DNA of 64,000 nt, from positions 35,332 to 99,331 of the forward strand of contig CACZMF010000007.1 in the NCBI GenBank assembly GCA_902782225.1, given 5' to 3'. The number at the start of each line of letters is the position of its first letter. Position 1 is the stretch's first letter. Below are positions 46,374 through 51,949 of the stretch, in pieces. The translations under genes and the position numbers were made by a program. Source of the DNA: an uncultured Bacteroidia bacterium (GTDB lineage: Bacteria > Bacteroidota > Bacteroidia > Bacteroidales > UBA932). The notes beneath the pieces are model-generated. The model ran no database searches. It saw nothing but the letters and a program-made list of their open reading frames with translations, and was not told the DNA's origin.

Positions 46374-47198
46374 ATGGACCCCCGCTTGACCAGACTTAGA
46401 CTTGAAACTCTTCTCCGCTCGCTGCCCGACCTGCTTATGCCAAGGGTCTGCCTTGTGTGCGGCAGGCAGTTGCTGCCCTCCGAGCGGCACCTGTGCGTGT
46501 GCTGCGAAGCGGACCTTCCGCTGACCCATTTCGAAAGTAATTCCCGCAACCCCATGGCCGACAGCTACAACGCCCGGCTCGTGGTAGCGGGCTGCGGAAT
46601 GTGCTACCAGTATGCAGTTTCCCTTTTCTACTATGGCTCCGGCAGCGGCTATGACTATATCCCCCAGGCACTTAAGTATGACCGCAACTTCGGGGCGGGC
46701 CGGCATTTCGCCCGCATGCTCGGAAGGCTGGTCGCCGGCGCGGAGCACTTCCGGGACGTGGACCTCGTGACCTGCGTCCCGCTGCACTGGACCCGCCGCT
46801 ACCGCCGCGGCTACAACCAGGCCGCCGTCATCGCCTCCGAGCTCGCCCGCGCCCTGCAGGCGGATCGGCCCGGCCGTGTGCTCTTCGACCCTTGGCTACT
46901 GCGCCGAACCCGCCGCACCGCCACCCAAACCCGCCTCTCAGTCGCCGACAAGGCCCTCAACGTCGCCGGCGCCTTCGCCGTCCGCCCTTCCCGACTCAAC
47001 CGCATCCTACGATTCAACCACACCTCCCGACTTAACCGCCCCTCCCGACTCAACAGCCTCCCCCGCCACATCCTCCTTGTCGACGACGTCTACACCACCG
47101 GCTCCACCCTGTCGGCCTGCGCAGAAGCCCTCTTCGAAGCCTTCGGCCCCGAAGTCCGCGTCAGCATTGCCACCCTCGCCTGCGTGCCGCAGCGCTGA
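46374..47198 (+). CDS. ComF-family phosphoribosyltransferase-like protein with repeat insertion
   Basis: Related to ComF, needed for natural transformation in some bacteria; many Bacteroidota carry it without known competence. 274 aa: zinc-finger-like cysteines (VCLVCGR...LCVCCE), the middle RRYRRGYNQA motif, and the PRPP-loop-like HILLVDDVYTTGSTL. Between GAFAVRP and HILLVDDV lies an extra stretch of about 22 residues with repeated SRLN (PSRLNRI, TSRLNRP, PSRLNSL), coded by a near-repeating CCTCCCGACTCAAC. In relatives I know this linker is short. The final bases run straight into tandem repeats. Confidence 0.88.
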   Translation: MDPRLTRLRLETLLRSLPDLLMPRVCLVCGRQLLPSERHLCVCCEADLPLTHFESNSRNPMADSYNARLVVAGCGMCYQYAVSLFYYGSGSGYDYIPQALKYDRNFGAGRHFARMLGRLVAGAEHFRDVDLVTCVPLHWTRRYRRGYNQAAVIASELARALQADRPGRVLFDPWLLRRTRRTATQTRLSVADKALNVAGAFAVRPSRLNRILRFNHTSRLNRPSRLNSLPRHILLVDDVYTTGSTLSACAEALFEAFGPEVRVSIATLACVPQR

Positions 47199-47346
47199 TG
47201 GACGCCGAGAGAACAGAGCAGAGGGCAGCAGAGGAGCGCAGAACGGAGGGACGCCGAGAGAACAGAGCAGAGGGCCGCAGAGGAGCACAGAGCAGAGGGC
47301 CGCAGCGTTAAACAGCCTCGGCACCCGAAAGCCCCCTCCCCTGTAC

Positions 47347-47551
47347 GGCGCAGGTCCCCCAACTGTCCGGCGCAGGTACCGAGGCATCATGGCGCATGTC
47401 CGAAAAAATGGTGGAGTCCTGCGCCATTGGAAAGCACAGAAGCCACATTTGCGGCGCAGGTCCCATCTATAAAAACTGACCTGCGCCAAGAAACCTCTGA
47501 ACCTGCGCCATCCCCCTGAAGACATGCGCCATCCCCATGAAGACCTGCGCC
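47347..47551. repeat. Left array of GGCGCAGGTCC motifs
   Basis: Nine copies with up to three mismatches: forward at 47347, 47369, 47391 and 47453; reverse (GGACCTGCGCC) at 47415, 47477, 47499, 47520 and 47541. Most neighbouring copies start 21-22 bp apart, which is two helical turns. Forward copies lie mostly to the left and reverse copies to the right. Confidence 0.85.
47418..47487. repeat. 70-bp direct repeat, left copy
   Basis: Matches 49354-49423 at 66 of 70 positions, same orientation, no gaps, 1936 bp apart. It contains ATTGGAAAGCACAGAAGCC between two motif copies. Confidence 0.9.
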
Positions 47552-47553
47552 AC

Positions 47554-48486
47554 CTACAATCCAGGCCTGGACATTCTGATGGCACTTTCCACATCTTCTT
47601 TCCCCATCTGAAGACATCGCGCAAGTTGGGCCGGGGATGTGCTACAGGTGCGGTACAGGTGAAGCAGGATGCGCAATTTCTGCTCCTTGCTCAAACTGGG
47701 AATGTCTTTGCCGTACCATCTGGTGGCGGTATCGCCTACGGTCACGTAAAAAGCAGCATCGTTTCGCCGGGTGCGGGGTCCGGAAACAAGCTTTTCGTGC
47801 ATTTCGGCATTATTCAGGCTGCCAATGGTCCTTAGGAAAAATGCCTGATCTCCAAGAAATGCACTCTCCAGGTATTTGTAGTCACACGCAGTCTCCGGGA
47901 GAAGCAGTCCTCCCGTGCTTATTTTCCAGGGGACGCGGCTGAGATCCGCGTGGGTGTGAAAGATGCTTTCCTTATCCCGGCGCGACAGGGCAGACACTTG
48001 CATAGCACTGATGTCGGAGCGGCCTTTTGCAAACATCGCATTGTAGGACGACCACCGGTAGTCTTCTATCCTGCAACCGGCATCCAGTGCGTTACGGGGG
48101 ATATATGCCAGTGCATTGCGGAGGTACTTGTCCGAATCCAGATACAATACTTTCACGTCCGAGCGTGCCAGCACCCTCTTTTCTCCGTACTTGTGGGATA
48201 TGTACTGCGAATGGTTCTTTTTTATGGCCTCACCGGCACGGACAGCAGAGTCGAGGCTGTCGGCCAGCACGGCGAGGTGGCCGTGGTTCGACATTTCTAT
48301 GTCAATGATTACCAATACGTTATTTACCCAGCTGCAAACGTGGAAATACTTCTGCATCACATCAAAATCCTCATCGTCACGACACAGTAGCACTGACTCC
48401 ATCCCTTCCAGGCTGATGTGGAAGGGATAGACTTTGGTCACAGTGCCGTCCGGTAGTTCCCTAAGAGTAATCCGCTGGAACTGCAT
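47554..48486 (-). CDS. REP-associated tyrosine transposase (RAYT, Y1/HUH family)
   Basis: A 310-aa single-strand DNA transposase-like protein. The HUH metal motif is HGH (residues 68-70) in IDIEMSNHGHLAVL. After it come YLRNALAYIPRNALDAG, equivalent to the YI.LNPVRAG of known RAYTs (catalytic Tyr probably 121 or 128), and YRWSSY. A C-terminal extension (SKEQKLRILLHLYR...QLARCLQMGKEDVESAI) looks like an HTH. RAYTs act on REP palindromes; here arrays of an 11-bp motif flank the gene on both sides, the last left motif ending 2 bp from the stop. All key residues are intact. Its start overlaps the upstream gene by 26 bp. Confidence 0.88.
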   Translation of the reverse strand: MQFQRITLRELPDGTVTKVYPFHISLEGMESVLLCRDDEDFDVMQKYFHVCSWVNNVLVIIDIEMSNHGHLAVLADSLDSAVRAGEAIKKNHSQYISHKYGEKRVLARSDVKVLYLDSDKYLRNALAYIPRNALDAGCRIEDYRWSSYNAMFAKGRSDISAMQVSALSRRDKESIFHTHADLSRVPWKISTGGLLLPETACDYKYLESAFLGDQAFFLRTIGSLNNAEMHEKLVSGPRTRRNDAAFYVTVGDTATRWYGKDIPSLSKEQKLRILLHLYRTCSTSPAQLARCLQMGKEDVESAIRMSRPGL

Positions 48487-48898
48487 CTTCTTTGGTCTTT
48501 ATGGGCATGATTCCGCCTGACATTAATGCGCCGGGGTCTCCGAAGGTCAGCGGCCTGATGACCTGCTTTGGATTAAAGCCATAAGGAGACTTCACTTTCG
48601 TGCAAAATTTTTCATAATGAGGCAGATAGCTGAACATCATCGTCGCCCAGAACTCTTCAGCCATCTCGTATGGCTCAGCAGTAGCGGCGATTTCAGCCAT
48701 GCTCAACAGCCTGACAGCCTTCGAAGGTTCATTGTCTCGGTTCTTCCAAATGCACTCAGCGAATGCCTTTATGGCAGATTTAATAAGAGGCTCTCCCAAT
48801 TCCGGTTGATCAAGAGACAAAATGGAGCTAAAATCCATTTCGGTATCGATGTGCAACTGTCCGTTGTCATCGATCAATACTTCCAAGAACTTTTTCAT
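48461..48898 (-). CDS. Hypothetical partner gene of the RAYT (145 aa)
   Basis: Starts MKKFLEVLIDDNGQLHIDTE at ATG 48898; a longer frame to 48964 lacks support. No signal peptide; mostly helical and acidic. Near the end is FNPKQVIRPLTFGDPGALMSG. I do not recognise the family. It overlaps the RAYT start by 26 bp, so it is translated just before the transposase and probably coupled to it. Lower GC than the surrounding genes, like the RAYT itself. It might modulate the transposase or be a cargo; both are guesses. Confidence 0.65.
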   Translation of the reverse strand: MKKFLEVLIDDNGQLHIDTEMDFSSILSLDQPELGEPLIKSAIKAFAECIWKNRDNEPSKAVRLLSMAEIAATAEPYEMAEEFWATMMFSYLPHYEKFCTKVKSPYGFNPKQVIRPLTFGDPGALMSGGIMPIKTKEDAVPADYS

Positions 48899-49134
48899 AG
48901 TTTTATAGTATAATGGCCATTTCGGCCGGTTATAATTCTGGGCTGCTTCAGCCTGTTGTTGCAAAGGAAGGAATAATTATCCGTTTTAAAAATTATTGCA
49001 ACGTTTATTTACAAAAAACGCCATATGGCGACCCCAGAGAGCGATTTCAGCAAAATAGGCAGCTTTTTTTCATGGAGAAAAATACCCAGAATGACTTAGC
49101 CCTCCCCCTTGACTGAATAGTTTCCCTACTGTGT

Positions 49135-49616
49135 GGCGCAGGTCCCTGGGGAGAGCGGCGCAGGACTCCGAAGAAAATGGCGCAGGTCCCTGGGGAGAGC
49201 GGCCACCGGTTCTGTTCCCTTCCACAGTGTGGCGCAGGTCCCTGGGGAGAGCGGCCACCGGTTCTGTTCCCTTCCACTGTGCGGCGCAGGTCCCCCACCC
49301 AAGTGGTGCAGGTCTCCCAACTCTCCGGTGCAGGTCCGATTTTTCCTATAGGACCTGCGCCATTGGAAAGCACAGAAGCCACATTTGCGGTGCAGGCCCC
49401 CTCTATAAAAACGGACCTGCGCCAGGGAGCCATAGGACCTGCGCCAGCAATGGAGGGACGGACGTCATGCAATGGAGGGACCTGCGCCATGCGGGAGGGC
49501 CGCAGCAGAGGCGCCACTGCACAGAGGACTGCAGAACGGAGGGCCGCAGCAGAGAGGGTCGCTGCTCCTGCGCCAGAAGATAGGGGCCGGACGAAAGCAA
49601 TGGAGGGACCTGCGCC
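49135..49616. repeat. Right array of GGCGCAGGTCC motifs
   Basis: About 14 copies. Forward starts: 49135, 49157, 49179, 49231, 49283, 49305, 49327, 49389. Reverse starts: 49351, 49413, 49435, 49478, 49564, 49606. Spacing is 22 bp, or 52 bp where a 30-bp block intervenes. As on the left, forward copies precede reverse copies. Confidence 0.85.
49354..49423. repeat. 70-bp direct repeat, right copy
   Basis: Partner of 47418-47487, 66 of 70 identical. The pair brackets the RAYT and its partner gene. Confidence 0.9.
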
Positions 49617-49623
49617 ATACGGG

Positions 49624-49753
49624 AGCGCTGCAGCGCTGAGGGCCAGCGGCCTGGGCCGCAGCACACAGGAACGGAGGCCAGCGGCCTGGGCCGCAGCACA
49701 CAGGAACGGAGGCCAGCGGAGGCCAGCGGCTTGGGCGCGTACACAGGAACGGA
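49624..49753. repeat. 35-bp tandem repeat and 14-bp palindrome
   Basis: AGCGCTGCAGCGCT (49624-49637) is a perfect palindrome. Units 49641-49675 and 49676-49710 are identical 35-mers (start GGCCAGCGGCCTGGGCCGCA); a degenerate third is at 49721-49753. The repeat ends just before the phosphatase-NAGPA gene. Confidence 0.88.
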
Positions 49754-49813
49754 GGGCAGCGGAGGGCTGCAACACAGAGGGCCACGGAGGCCGCTAAGGG
49801 CCGCGGAGGGCCG

Positions 49814-51949
49814 CTACTCCCGGACCAGGATGAAGTGGGAGTAGAGGTGGCGCTCGCCGGCGTGGTCGTAGCGCTTGTTGTCGGTGGGGTAGTTGACGAC
49901 GTGGGTGGCGGGGTCGCCCTGGCCCTCGATGCAGAGGGTGGAGGAGCCGCCGCCGTCCATGTTGAGGGCGTAGCGGGGGTTGAAGTTGGCCTTCAGGAAG
50001 CGGGTGAGTTCGCGGCAGGTCATGCCTTCGCTGACTCCTGCCCTGCGGCCGTCCACCACGACCATCAGCAGATGGTTGTCGGCGGTCAGCGCTACGGCGG
50101 TGCGGGGATGGCGCACGCCCTGGTGGCGCTTGCCGTCTTCGTAGTTGAATTCCTTGAGGGCGTCCTCATTGTAGAATCCGGCGAAACTCTCGCCCACGGG
50201 CACGTAGTCGTCGATGAGCATAGGAGAGCTGGTGAATATGTTCGGCGCGGTGCAGGAAGAGTAGAACTTCCGTATACCGGCCAAGTCCTTGCCCTTGCCG
50301 TCGTAGGATATGCTCACGCTGCGGCCGTCGGTGCAGATGGCCCCCTCGCTCTTCCACTGCGGCACGCCGGAGTCCATCACGGCGCCGTTCGGCACCACGG
50401 AGTAGTAGTCGCCGTCCACCTTGAGCACCACGGAAGCGGGCTCGTAGCACGCATTCATGGCCACCACAGCGCCGCGCTCCTTCATCACCTGCGAGGTCGG
50501 TTTGGCCTCCGCCGTGTAGTTGAACTTCAGGGCGCAGCCGGGCACGGACATGTCCCAGTCCGCCACATACACGTGCTGCACGCTGCCGGACACGGGATCG
50601 GCGCCGTGGAACTCCCTGTACACCACGCCCGGAGCCACATCGGTAGCCTTCCAGGCCTGCCTGCCCATACGGGACACGAAGCGGTCCACGCGGCCGGCAA
50701 GGTAGTCCCGCACGTCGGCCCACCTGTAGTACGGTCCGGAAACGGCCTCAAGCCGCCCGAGGCGCACTTCCTCCCCGTTCAGCAGGAACTTCACGAGCAC
50801 GTCGCCCGGCTTGTTCTTCCTGGGGGCGTAGAACACCATCTGGATGTTGGTGGACATGGGGGAACGGAAGGTCTGGAAATAATAGACAAGGTCGTCGGCC
50901 GCCTCCGGAATATGGTCGAAGTCGTCGATGTCCATGATCATCAGCAGGGCCATCAGCACGTGGTCGTGGCCGAAACGAAGGTCGGCTCCGCGCACCCCGC
51001 CCATGAGCGCCGCATCGGCCTTCTCCACCATATCGTCCACGATGGAGCTGCAGGGCGTGCGGTAGGAGAAATACTCCCTGAAGCGTTCGTAATTATCAAT
51101 CTCCCAGAGGGTTGCGAATTCCTGCGGGGTCACCAGGCCGCTCAGGTCCAGGCGCTGCTCCTTCGGCAGGCTGTTCTGGCCGGCCACGAGCATATAGATG
51201 TTGAAAAACAGATCGTAGGGGTTGACGCTGCCCAGGCACGAGTCAGTATCCTTGAACACGCGGGCGAGTATGTCCTTGTAGCCCGGAAGGTGCCGCAGGA
51301 AAAAGGTCTCGGAGCTTTCGGGATACGGAAACGCGAGCGCCGGGCCCTTGTAGGCGAATATGTTGCGTCCCTGGTTGGGGCGGGTGGCCTGGATGTCCGT
51401 CTTGCCCTGATGCTCATAGACGGAGCTTTGGGGCGACAGGCGCGACAGAGCGGCGCAGCACGACGACATGCTCAGTATCGACCGCACGCTGGACGAGGAG
51501 CACGCATCCACCACGCTCCCCTTCCCGAACACGGTGGGGAAACTCTTCACCATGATTTCAGCTATCCTCTGCTGTTGCTCCCAGCCTATGGGCGTGAGGT
51601 CGCCCACGCGGTAGCGGACGTTGTCCCAGAACGGCTGCACGCGCTCCAGCAGCGCCTCACCGTAGGGCGTCAGGTTATCCTGCCTGCGGCCTTCCGAAAG
51701 GAGGTTGAAGAACACCGTGTAGGCCGACTCCGTGTAGGCGTAACGGGAGCCGTGGCGCCCGTAGTGGCTGATATACACGGCCTCGTAGCCCTTGGGGGCG
51801 GGCGTGGATGCCTTTGGGGTGAAATCATAGAGGCCGTCGAGGCCGGAAGCCTTGTTCCAGTCGGAAAGCACTTCCTCGCGTACGCCGGTGCGCTGAGCAA
51901 ACGCCGCCGCGCTCCACAATGCCAGACAAATCAGGATAACTCTTTTCAT
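49814..51949 (-). CDS. Histidine acid phosphatase - NAGPA phosphodiester glycosidase fusion
   Basis: An exported 711-aa protein with signal peptide (MKRVILICLALWSAAAFAQ). Residues about 40-420 are a histidine acid phosphatase of the phytase/MINPP type: nucleophile motif YISHYGRHGSRY, and the HD proton-donor motif in LRFGHDHVL. Residues about 460-711 resemble the NAGPA domain (phosphodiester alpha-N-acetylglucosaminidase), with PRTAVALT and MDGGGSSTL. In animals NAGPA removes GlcNAc from GlcNAc-P-mannose, exposing the phosphate that a phosphatase could then take. The frame continues to 52060 but I use ATG 51949 at the signal peptide. Last gene of the leftward operon. Confidence 0.87.
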   Translation of the reverse strand: MKRVILICLALWSAAAFAQRTGVREEVLSDWNKASGLDGLYDFTPKASTPAPKGYEAVYISHYGRHGSRYAYTESAYTVFFNLLSEGRRQDNLTPYGEALLERVQPFWDNVRYRVGDLTPIGWEQQQRIAEIMVKSFPTVFGKGSVVDACSSSSVRSILSMSSCCAALSRLSPQSSVYEHQGKTDIQATRPNQGRNIFAYKGPALAFPYPESSETFFLRHLPGYKDILARVFKDTDSCLGSVNPYDLFFNIYMLVAGQNSLPKEQRLDLSGLVTPQEFATLWEIDNYERFREYFSYRTPCSSIVDDMVEKADAALMGGVRGADLRFGHDHVLMALLMIMDIDDFDHIPEAADDLVYYFQTFRSPMSTNIQMVFYAPRKNKPGDVLVKFLLNGEEVRLGRLEAVSGPYYRWADVRDYLAGRVDRFVSRMGRQAWKATDVAPGVVYREFHGADPVSGSVQHVYVADWDMSVPGCALKFNYTAEAKPTSQVMKERGAVVAMNACYEPASVVLKVDGDYYSVVPNGAVMDSGVPQWKSEGAICTDGRSVSISYDGKGKDLAGIRKFYSSCTAPNIFTSSPMLIDDYVPVGESFAGFYNEDALKEFNYEDGKRHQGVRHPRTAVALTADNHLLMVVVDGRRAGVSEGMTCRELTRFLKANFNPRYALNMDGGGSSTLCIEGQGDPATHVVNYPTDNKRYDHAGERHLYSHFILVRE

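Follow-up and report, generated by a model that had tools for sequence, protein, structure and literature searches.

The closest described systems are the REPtrons, in which a REP-associated tyrosine transposase (RAYT; REP, repetitive extragenic palindrome) such as TnpA-REP from Escherichia coli (PDB 4er8) has a HUH/Tyr fold, is encoded by a gene flanked by inverted palindromes and has dispersed intergenic copies of its repeats, the REPINs. RAYT-REP co-evolution has been reported at the level of trees (Nunvar 2010, PMC2817692), and in vitro selection with three TnpA-REP enzymes has shown that REPs are recognized as single-stranded DNA (ssDNA) via GTAG, the bulge, the loop and some stem positions, to differing degrees (PMC8266576). 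Articles given by PMC number are cited from extracts, and statements on them are limited to these. Here we analyze a RAYT locus at positions 47347-49616 of a 64,000-nucleotide stretch of DNA (the window) from the 2.58-Mb draft genome, in 34 contigs, of an uncultured Bacteroidia bacterium. In this locus, a transposase gene and a small partner gene lie between two arrays of an 11-bp half-site. We favor, with some reserve, the reading that it is a REPtron of a RAYT subfamily known so far from a single genus, whose hybrid REPs would combine REPIN hairpins with outward half-site arrays that are loaded as duplex DNA.

Comparison with described systems

Although it shares the features of REPtrons listed above, including RAYT-REP co-evolution (PMC2817692), the window system differs from them in several respects. 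Its palindromes measure 34-35 nt, with a loop of 12-13 nt that often holds an A/T tract, half-site arrays with a step of 21-22 bp run outward from them, and bases 3-5 of the half-site follow residues 169, 173 and 179 of the RAYT. GTAG or GTGG was absent, by eye and on either strand, from the four bases outside either palindrome in 13 cores. The canonical GTAG REP of RAYT groups 2 and 3 was rejected as an assignment because of this missing foot tetranucleotide. The system is thus a RAYT in the broad sense with a REPIN core, and not a canonical GTAG REP system.

TIRYTs (TIRtrons) and TnpA-Y1 subclass 2.1 also combine a Y1 HUH transposase with flanking inverted repeats able to form dispersed families, and subclass 2.1 has a C-terminal extension resembling a helix-turn-helix (HTH) domain (PMC3733652, PMC6006769). 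However, many TIRYT terminal repeats, though not all, share GGGGWSAS in the extracts, while the constant part of the window system is AGGT; the half-sites GNNNNAGGT lack GGGGWSAS, and an assignment to TIRYTs was not retained. Phased arrays are not described in the extracts for either TIRYTs or subclass 2.1 (PMC3733652, PMC6006769). The Bacteroidetes RAYTs of TnpA-Y1 subclass 2.6, with "atypical secondary structures" (PMC6006769), come from the same phylum and have repeats without GTAG, but the signature given for them is NH[LIV]H and YIH[QN]NP, in contrast to NHGH and YIPRNA in the window RAYT, which excludes this subclass as extracted.

Two systems outside the RAYTs resemble the arrays. The transposase ends of IS607/IS1535 (PMC6188088) hold short, helically phased direct repeats bound cooperatively by the transposase, although this enzyme is an unrelated serine recombinase. 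At the pMV158 origin, the initiator RepB, which has a catalytic tyrosine, binds three 11-bp direct repeats as duplex and cuts at a hairpin locus, and its binding to the repeats seems to promote extrusion of the adjacent hairpin (PMC5030251); RepB, however, is a plasmid replication initiator, and a REPIN-like palindrome pair is not described in the extract. Phased half-site arrays or a residue-to-base code for RAYTs were not found in the open-licence literature of PubMed Central (PMC).

Other kinds of element were also considered. No Rfam RNA element matched at gathering score in 46800-50200. A phage or defence origin was set aside with no PHROGs or PADLOC match for either protein, and the motif pattern gave 20 hits in viral contigs, none of them a relative. 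A CRISPR was dismissed by inspection (11-bp repeats with 11-bp spacers).

REPIN cores and half-site arrays

The half-site consensus of the arrays is GNNNNAGGT, written below as F or R according to its orientation. Allowing two mismatches to GGCGCAGGTCC, the left array (47347-47551) holds nine half-sites, F-22-F-22-F-24-R-38-F-24-R-22-R-21-R-21-R (spacings 22, 22, 24, 38, 24, 22, 21 and 21 bp), and the right array (49135-49616) holds 14, with spacings of 22, 22, 52, 52, 22, 22, 24, 38, 24, 22, 43, 86 and 42 bp. With at most one mismatch, GGCGCAGGTCC matches 24 times in the whole window (17 in the arrays), compared to 2.15 expected and a maximum of 6 in shuffled sequence. The bracketing of both genes by motif arrays, claimed in an initial annotation of this DNA, is therefore confirmed with these nine and 14 copies. 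Its description of forward copies preceding reverse ones holds only roughly, since the arrays read F...F-24-R-38-F-24-R...R and contain a core of two palindromes that it had not described. Its contrast with classical palindromic REPs is not supported, because each array holds two 35-nt palindromes that form a REPIN.

Each F-24-R unit is a palindrome of 35 nt, its 11-nt arms enclosing a loop of 13 nt. The left core (47391-47487) consists of palindromes at 47391-47425 and 47453-47487 around a 27-bp linker (47426-47452), and the right core (49327-49423) of palindromes at 49327-49361 and 49389-49423 around an identical linker (49362-49388). An alignment of 13 cores gives a core length of 97-98 bp with linkers of 27-28 bp; the A/T-rich part of the loop adjoins the left arm in loop 1 and the right arm in loop 2. 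The two palindromes are thus inverted copies of each other and the core is a REPIN, two inverted REPs that occur as a dispersed unit. Among relatives, at loop positions 14-17 of 176 palindromes from 55 loci, all four bases are T in 66, all are A in 24, A and T are mixed in 16, and 70 are not entirely A/T.

Single half-sites run outward from the outer arms of the core, and the general pattern in this genome is (F,22)n F-24-R-38-F-24-R (22,R)n, with steps of 21, 28-29, 43 or 52 as variations and an extra palindrome in one array (L049). Base preferences are similar in the core arms (56) and the outer sites (109), and in both, position 11, together with position 3, is among the variable ones.

The RAYT gene (47554-48486, minus strand; 310 aa) has its stop codon 2 bp from the nearest half-site of the left array. 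The HxH motif and tyrosine of RAYTs (TnpA-REP, TnpA-Y1 class 2) are present as H68-x-H70 and Y128, the latter being, by its motif position, the putative catalytic tyrosine. All three residues are invariant in 32 sequences; in 59 sequences Y128 is invariant and H68 and H70 are conserved to at least 90%. The structural model (mean predicted local distance difference test score, pLDDT, 92) has the predicted fold of TnpA-REP, and its best match by both aligners is 4er8, an enzyme bound to a REP hairpin. As tRNA-His guanylyltransferases score close behind in Foldseek (3.7e-3), the HxH and tyrosine motifs carry part of the assignment; the inverted palindromic flanks with dispersed copies that belong to RAYT/TnpA-REP systems are found as well. 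The additional C-terminal domain that had been noticed from the sequence is also predicted in the model, as three HTH-like helices encoded by codons 263-306 (47569-47700, minus strand).

Recurrence beside related RAYTs

Of 400 genomes of the genus that were searched, 61 yielded a RAYT at E 1e-85 or better. Locus L031 and the best 80 of 147 RAYT loci were taken as an 81-locus set; related loci come from records of uncultured Bacteroidales or Bacteroidia, many from the ruminant stomach. A profile search at E 1e-40 among 295 genomes of the order recovered the subfamily in none outside the window's own genome; to date it is known from one genus. Members of it also turned up on three short contigs assigned to Fibrobacter (L189, L201 and L219), by mis-binning or transfer.

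An automatic caller reported F-24-R on at least one side in 70 of the 81 loci and on both sides in 46. Since F-24-R is built into this caller, which reported something in 38 of 243 dinucleotide-shuffled controls, independence from it holds only for the full FRFR core and for steps of 20-23 bp. The core was found in 57/81 loci (31/81 on both sides) and a same-orientation step of 20-23 bp in 38/81, each with 0/243 in the shuffled controls. The core counts are lower bounds, because the caller missed a 34-nt geometry (F-23-R, 28 pairs in 10 loci). Such 34-nt palindromes occur at L170, L176-L180, L182, L183 and L185 with the same 22-bp arrays, beside RAYTs of the same REH class. The half-sites differ between RAYTs (GGCGCAGGTC, GTCGCAGGTC, GGGCAAGGTC, GGGGAAGGTC, GGACCAGGTC, GGGAGAGGTG and others), and AGGT is nearly constant among them.

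The palindrome GGCGCAGGT-N17-ACCTGCGCC, with at most one mismatch, occurs in 39 of the 400 genomes. It is present in 27 of the 61 genomes with the RAYT at E 1e-85 and in 12 of the 339 without (Fisher 3e-16). Only one palindrome is present in six of the 39, of which four have the RAYT and two do not, and excluding these six leaves 23/61 versus 10/339. The highest number of copies among the 400 genomes is 76, in G272 (L114/L198), whose RAYT locus has 21-bp arrays and a longer R to F linker of 60. Genome G077 contains 24 GGCGCAGGT palindromes, yet the bases predicted from its best RAYT match (L065, residues RDR) are CC and not GC; the RAYT that fits its palindromes may be absent from that draft genome.

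RAYT residues that covary with half-site bases

The RAYT itself probably reads the motif, through the helix that follows the catalytic core and not through the C-terminal HTH, because its residues 173, 179 and 169 change with bases 4, 5 and 3 of the half-site. Codons 169-179 (47950-47982, minus strand) encode a helix and a turn, residues 169-176 being helical in the predicted structure. Covariation was computed over 58 of the 81 loci, selected for an arm with G1 and GGT at positions 7-9, at least four sites and a protein of 285-345 aa. With overall protein similarity removed, the partial coupling reached 0.88 for residue 173 and base 4, 0.80 for 179 and base 5, and 0.60 for 169 and base 3, the next-best columns reaching 0.34, 0.37 and 0.32.

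The pairings themselves were tabulated over 79 loci, 21 of which were held out from the discovery set and are under 95% identity to it. Residue 173 goes with base 4 as E with G (41/41), R with C (23/23), D with C (5/5) and K with C (2/2), and residue 179 goes with base 5 as G with A (42/42), H with C (25/25), R with C (6/7) and N with T (2/2). Glu is known to prefer C, Arg and His prefer G, and Asn prefers A, and most of the pairings fit these preferences provided that the opposite strand is the one read. On a tree inferred with residues 160-185 excluded, residue and base changed on the same branch in 11/13 (173 and base 4), 4/5 (179 and base 5) and 8/14 (169 and base 3), each the best score among variable columns. 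At L166, R173 and C4 occur at 57% identity to the window RAYT, and loci of similar identity carry E173 and G4.

The pairings were also compared with 43 held-out RAYTs below 95% identity to the 58. At the 21 where the called arm resembled a half-site, a choice that was the author's judgement and can favor the code, hand scoring of residues seen in discovery gave the right base 4 in 17/17 and the right base 5 in 21/21; the residues at 173 without a prior were I, L and M, each with A, and F, with C. Of the other 22, four distant RAYTs were set aside, and for the remaining 18 plain hexamer counts put the predicted dinucleotide first in 16 of the 17 with a prediction. The 81-locus set includes 21 uncalled loci, in part the same as those 18, and there it came first in 15 of the 19 with a prediction, one of them tied. 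Over the whole set it ranked alone at the top in 61 of 76 loci, the majority of which also belong to the discovery set.

The C-terminal HTH had been hinted at as relevant to recognition, but the covariation signal lies at residues 169-179 rather than at 263-306. For the HTH, no covariation with the half-site was found (its 40 columns have a mean partial correlation of -0.01 and account for 2 of the top 25), and it was rejected as the reader of the motif. Recognition of the motif by the RAYT has strong support from covariation, and it is likely that the RAYT binds its half-site by base-specific contacts from segment 165-180, which would be alike in a hairpin stem and in plain duplex.

Phasing, polarity and the proposed loading of duplex DNA

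Spacings were counted strictly, as distances of 12-75 bp between same-orientation neighbors that lie near RAYTs from 14 residue classes and match the predicted hexamer exactly. Among 340 such spacings, 230 fall at 20-23 bp, 15 at 31-34, 39 at 39-45 and 36 at 59-63, and none at 24-30 or 35-38 bp; at one locus (L165) nearly all steps are 32-33 bp. With steps mostly of 21-22 bp and sometimes of 31-34, most half-sites would lie on one face of the helix. Relative to the core, 204 of 219 outer half-sites are oriented as expected and 15 are not. The two-turn phasing of the initial annotation thus holds strongly across RAYT loci, at mostly 21-22 bp, but not absolutely, as off-phase spacings exist: phasing is strong but imperfect. 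A first phase statistic was discarded, being inflated by multiples of 22 (skipped units) and affected by eight loci with near self-complementary arms. A 4-of-15 test on the strict spacings was given no weight, being post hoc and weakened by off-phase lax values, and an interpretation of the linker lengths as clean one-turn steps was rejected because they are not clean.

Phasing, polarity and the many outer sites without a pairing partner lead us to infer that duplex DNA is loaded. In the proposed mechanism, RAYT monomers would bind duplex half-sites side by side and mostly on one face, comparable to the TnpA of IS1535 and to RepB. Loading of the array would raise the local concentration of the RAYT and favor the extrusion or capture of hairpins in the REPIN core, where the HUH/Tyr center would cut single-stranded DNA. 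Cleavage at this last step follows from what is known of the RAYT family. That several monomers load on the duplex array in this way, aiding hairpin extrusion or capture, has in our estimate somewhat less than an even chance. An extended form of the proposal, nearly balanced between true and false, holds that the RAYTs of this genus, besides acting as enzymes on ssDNA hairpins, bind duplex DNA in a sequence-specific way, with a simple recognition code and with origin-like loading platforms of phased half-sites around a cleavable hairpin pair. In the code of this form, residue 173 would set base 4, residue 179 would set base 5 and residue 169 would influence bases 2-3, and the whole design would stand halfway between REPtrons and HUH replication origins.

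Several observations weigh against the proposal. Concerning phasing, a lax count (up to two mismatches, unambiguous arms) gave 31 spacings at 24-38 bp, of which 17 fall at 31-34 and 14 are off-phase; L043, an array of the window's genome, has spacings of 28 and 29 bp, including two exact copies 29 bp apart; and the R to F linker classes (38-39, 49-51 and 60) differ by no clean single turns. Spacings of 42-44 bp are possibly skipped 22-bp units and those of 61-63 bp missed core partners, so that these values are not independent and the useful phasing evidence lies in the 21-22 mode and the 31-34 class. Recently duplicated 22-bp units have no extra conservation of the motif (19 motif versus 16 spacer differences in 16 pairs). 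Concerning the code, the predicted dinucleotide is not the unique top in 15 of 76 loci and two HEH loci contradict the prediction. R179 goes with T in 1/7, and F173 and one of two G173 go with C. The pairing of D173 with C in 5/5, at loci with near self-complementary arms, misfits the simple chemistry that explains E173 with G, and residue 169 is loosely coupled (R169 with C 20, A 6, T 2 and G 2). Finally, 12 of the 39 palindrome-bearing genomes have no RAYT at E 1e-85 (18 of 39 at 1e-95), and single palindrome hits may be due to chance, since the reversed pattern also hits six genomes once each.

The alternative that survives best, although we consider it improbable, is that the outer half-sites are by-products: a REPIN arm and its 11-bp neighbor would be duplicated by slippage, and the copies would decay without a function. 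Neighboring units often share spacers (L041, L038 and L053), the recent duplicates differ equally in motif and spacer, array length is highly variable between loci and some spacings are off phase, all as slippage would have it. Over 80 adjacent unit pairs, however, which were picked by motif similarity, the spacers diverge by 60% per site and the motif by 13%, and this constraint is position-specific, with 0, 3 and 3 differences at positions 2, 4 and 5 compared to 27 and 29 at positions 3 and 11. The clustering of steps at 20-23 and 31-34 bp, the polarity kept at 204 to 15, and the recurrence of arrays with new motifs beside diverged RAYTs also speak against by-products.

It is less probable still, and in our view quite unlikely, that each array forms one large single-stranded structure in which outer F sites pair with outer R sites, giving a long interrupted hairpin processed as ssDNA. 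The inverted arrangement, with F on the left and R on the right, suits this idea, as does the action of the known TnpA-REP enzymes on ssDNA hairpins (PMC8266576, from the extract). Both cores also fold better as ssDNA than their shuffles, the left into two hairpins (z -3.15) and the right into one long hairpin (z -3.79). Against it, outer F and R numbers often differ strongly (L041 has seven F and two or three R, and the first array of L049 has fifteen F and two R), so that many outer sites have no pairing partner, and ssDNA pairing needs no clustering of steps at two and three turns.

Arrays elsewhere in the genome and a regulatory alternative

Across the genome of the window, the exact 11-mer occurs 70 times and its reversed pattern three times; with one mismatch allowed, the contrast is weaker (278 versus 156). 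This genome has 12 more arrays far from every RAYT gene identified in it; one of the 12 (L040) is a fragment of four sites that lacks a core. The initial annotation had named motif copies far from RAYT genes as a sign against its reading. Such copies do exist within the genome, though with the same REPIN-plus-array layout, and many copies distant from the RAYT are as expected of REP elements; across the genus, the palindrome goes with the RAYT.

With genes called by a simple hexamer model, all 14 arrays, including the two at the RAYT, are intergenic: seven between convergent genes, seven between tandem genes and none between divergent ones, for which the chance is about 0.018 if a quarter of sites were divergent. 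At one array (L044), the aligned flanks are 392 bp apart here and 22 bp apart at the orthologous site of a relative (G153) that has no array, so that arrays are gained or lost between species, as judged from the one site compared. A clean empty site for the RAYT cassette was not found among the genomes matched, in which the cassette neighbors occur in other contexts.

These placements bear on the idea, as improbable as a single-stranded array, that the arrays mainly regulate, as an operator of the partner and RAYT genes and elsewhere as gene-end sites like those of bacterial interspersed mosaic elements (termination, gyrase, mRNA stability). About 237 bp separate the right array from the partner ATG downstream of it, and the AT-rich leader between them (48899-49134) is a probable promoter region by its position and composition; the intergenic position of 14/14 arrays, with none divergent, also agrees with a role at gene ends. 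A placement 3' of genes, however, misfits an operator, and the L044 array lies between hairpin-plus-T-run sequences that, in our reading, resemble terminators of both neighbors, one of them shared with the array-less relative. Under the duplex-loading proposal, the right array might also mediate autoregulation as a side effect.

Other repeats were observed in this genome. The array flanks share further, partly tandem repeats between loci (68-96% identity over 20-205 bp), in groups such as L037, L049 (both arrays) and L052, or L038, L040 and L053, and others, as if arrays and other repeats accumulated at common sites. At L046 and L047 (C9 37.9k, 40.7k and 49.6k), copies of GGACCTGCGCC are 33 bp apart and look like a different repeat family, not arrays of the RAYT half-site type. 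The genome has at least four more, distant RAYTs (L033, L034, L035 and L036), around which other repeated words occur at spacings such as 66-71, 18/33, 51 and 72 bp.

The partner gene and the flanks of the locus

The partner gene (48461-48898, minus strand; 145 aa) overlaps the start of the RAYT gene. The window partner had no Pfam match at E 0.1, and its model (pLDDT 84) had no PDB match at E 0.001. Its family lies upstream of 45 of the 81 RAYTs and in 40 of those 45 ends within eight bases of the start of the RAYT match; several other loci have a different or diverged small open reading frame upstream of the RAYT, and some have no room for one. At L213, L214, L225, L227, L235 and L239 only 2-105 bp separate the end of the nearest upstream half-site from the RAYT, which leaves no room for a partner gene, and these loci nonetheless have cores or arrays. 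We read the gene as a putative accessory. That the partner or a host protein, and not the RAYT, reads the arrays is very improbable: the frequent partner or small reading frame upstream of the RAYT would suit it, but RAYT residues predict the half-site bases and these six loci keep cores or arrays with no room for the partner.

Intergenic sequence at 47199-47340 and 49490-49820 of the window is rich in low-complexity repeats resembling GCAGAGGGCCGCAG, which lie outside the left array and both inside and beyond the outer part of the right array.

Implications for RAYTs and their repeats

RAYT-REP co-evolution was already known at the level of trees and three enzymes had been dissected experimentally, as far as the extracts report; phased half-site arrays and a residue-to-base code are what the present locus and its relatives add. 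The 79 natural pairs of enzyme and site give a code that is testable by single swaps, and the phased arrays predict the loading of duplex DNA, a step not described for RAYTs in the open-licence PMC literature as extracted. How RAYTs pick their repeats thus becomes a directly testable question and, if this is right, it would be possible to re-aim RAYTs rationally and to match REP families with their enzymes by sequence.

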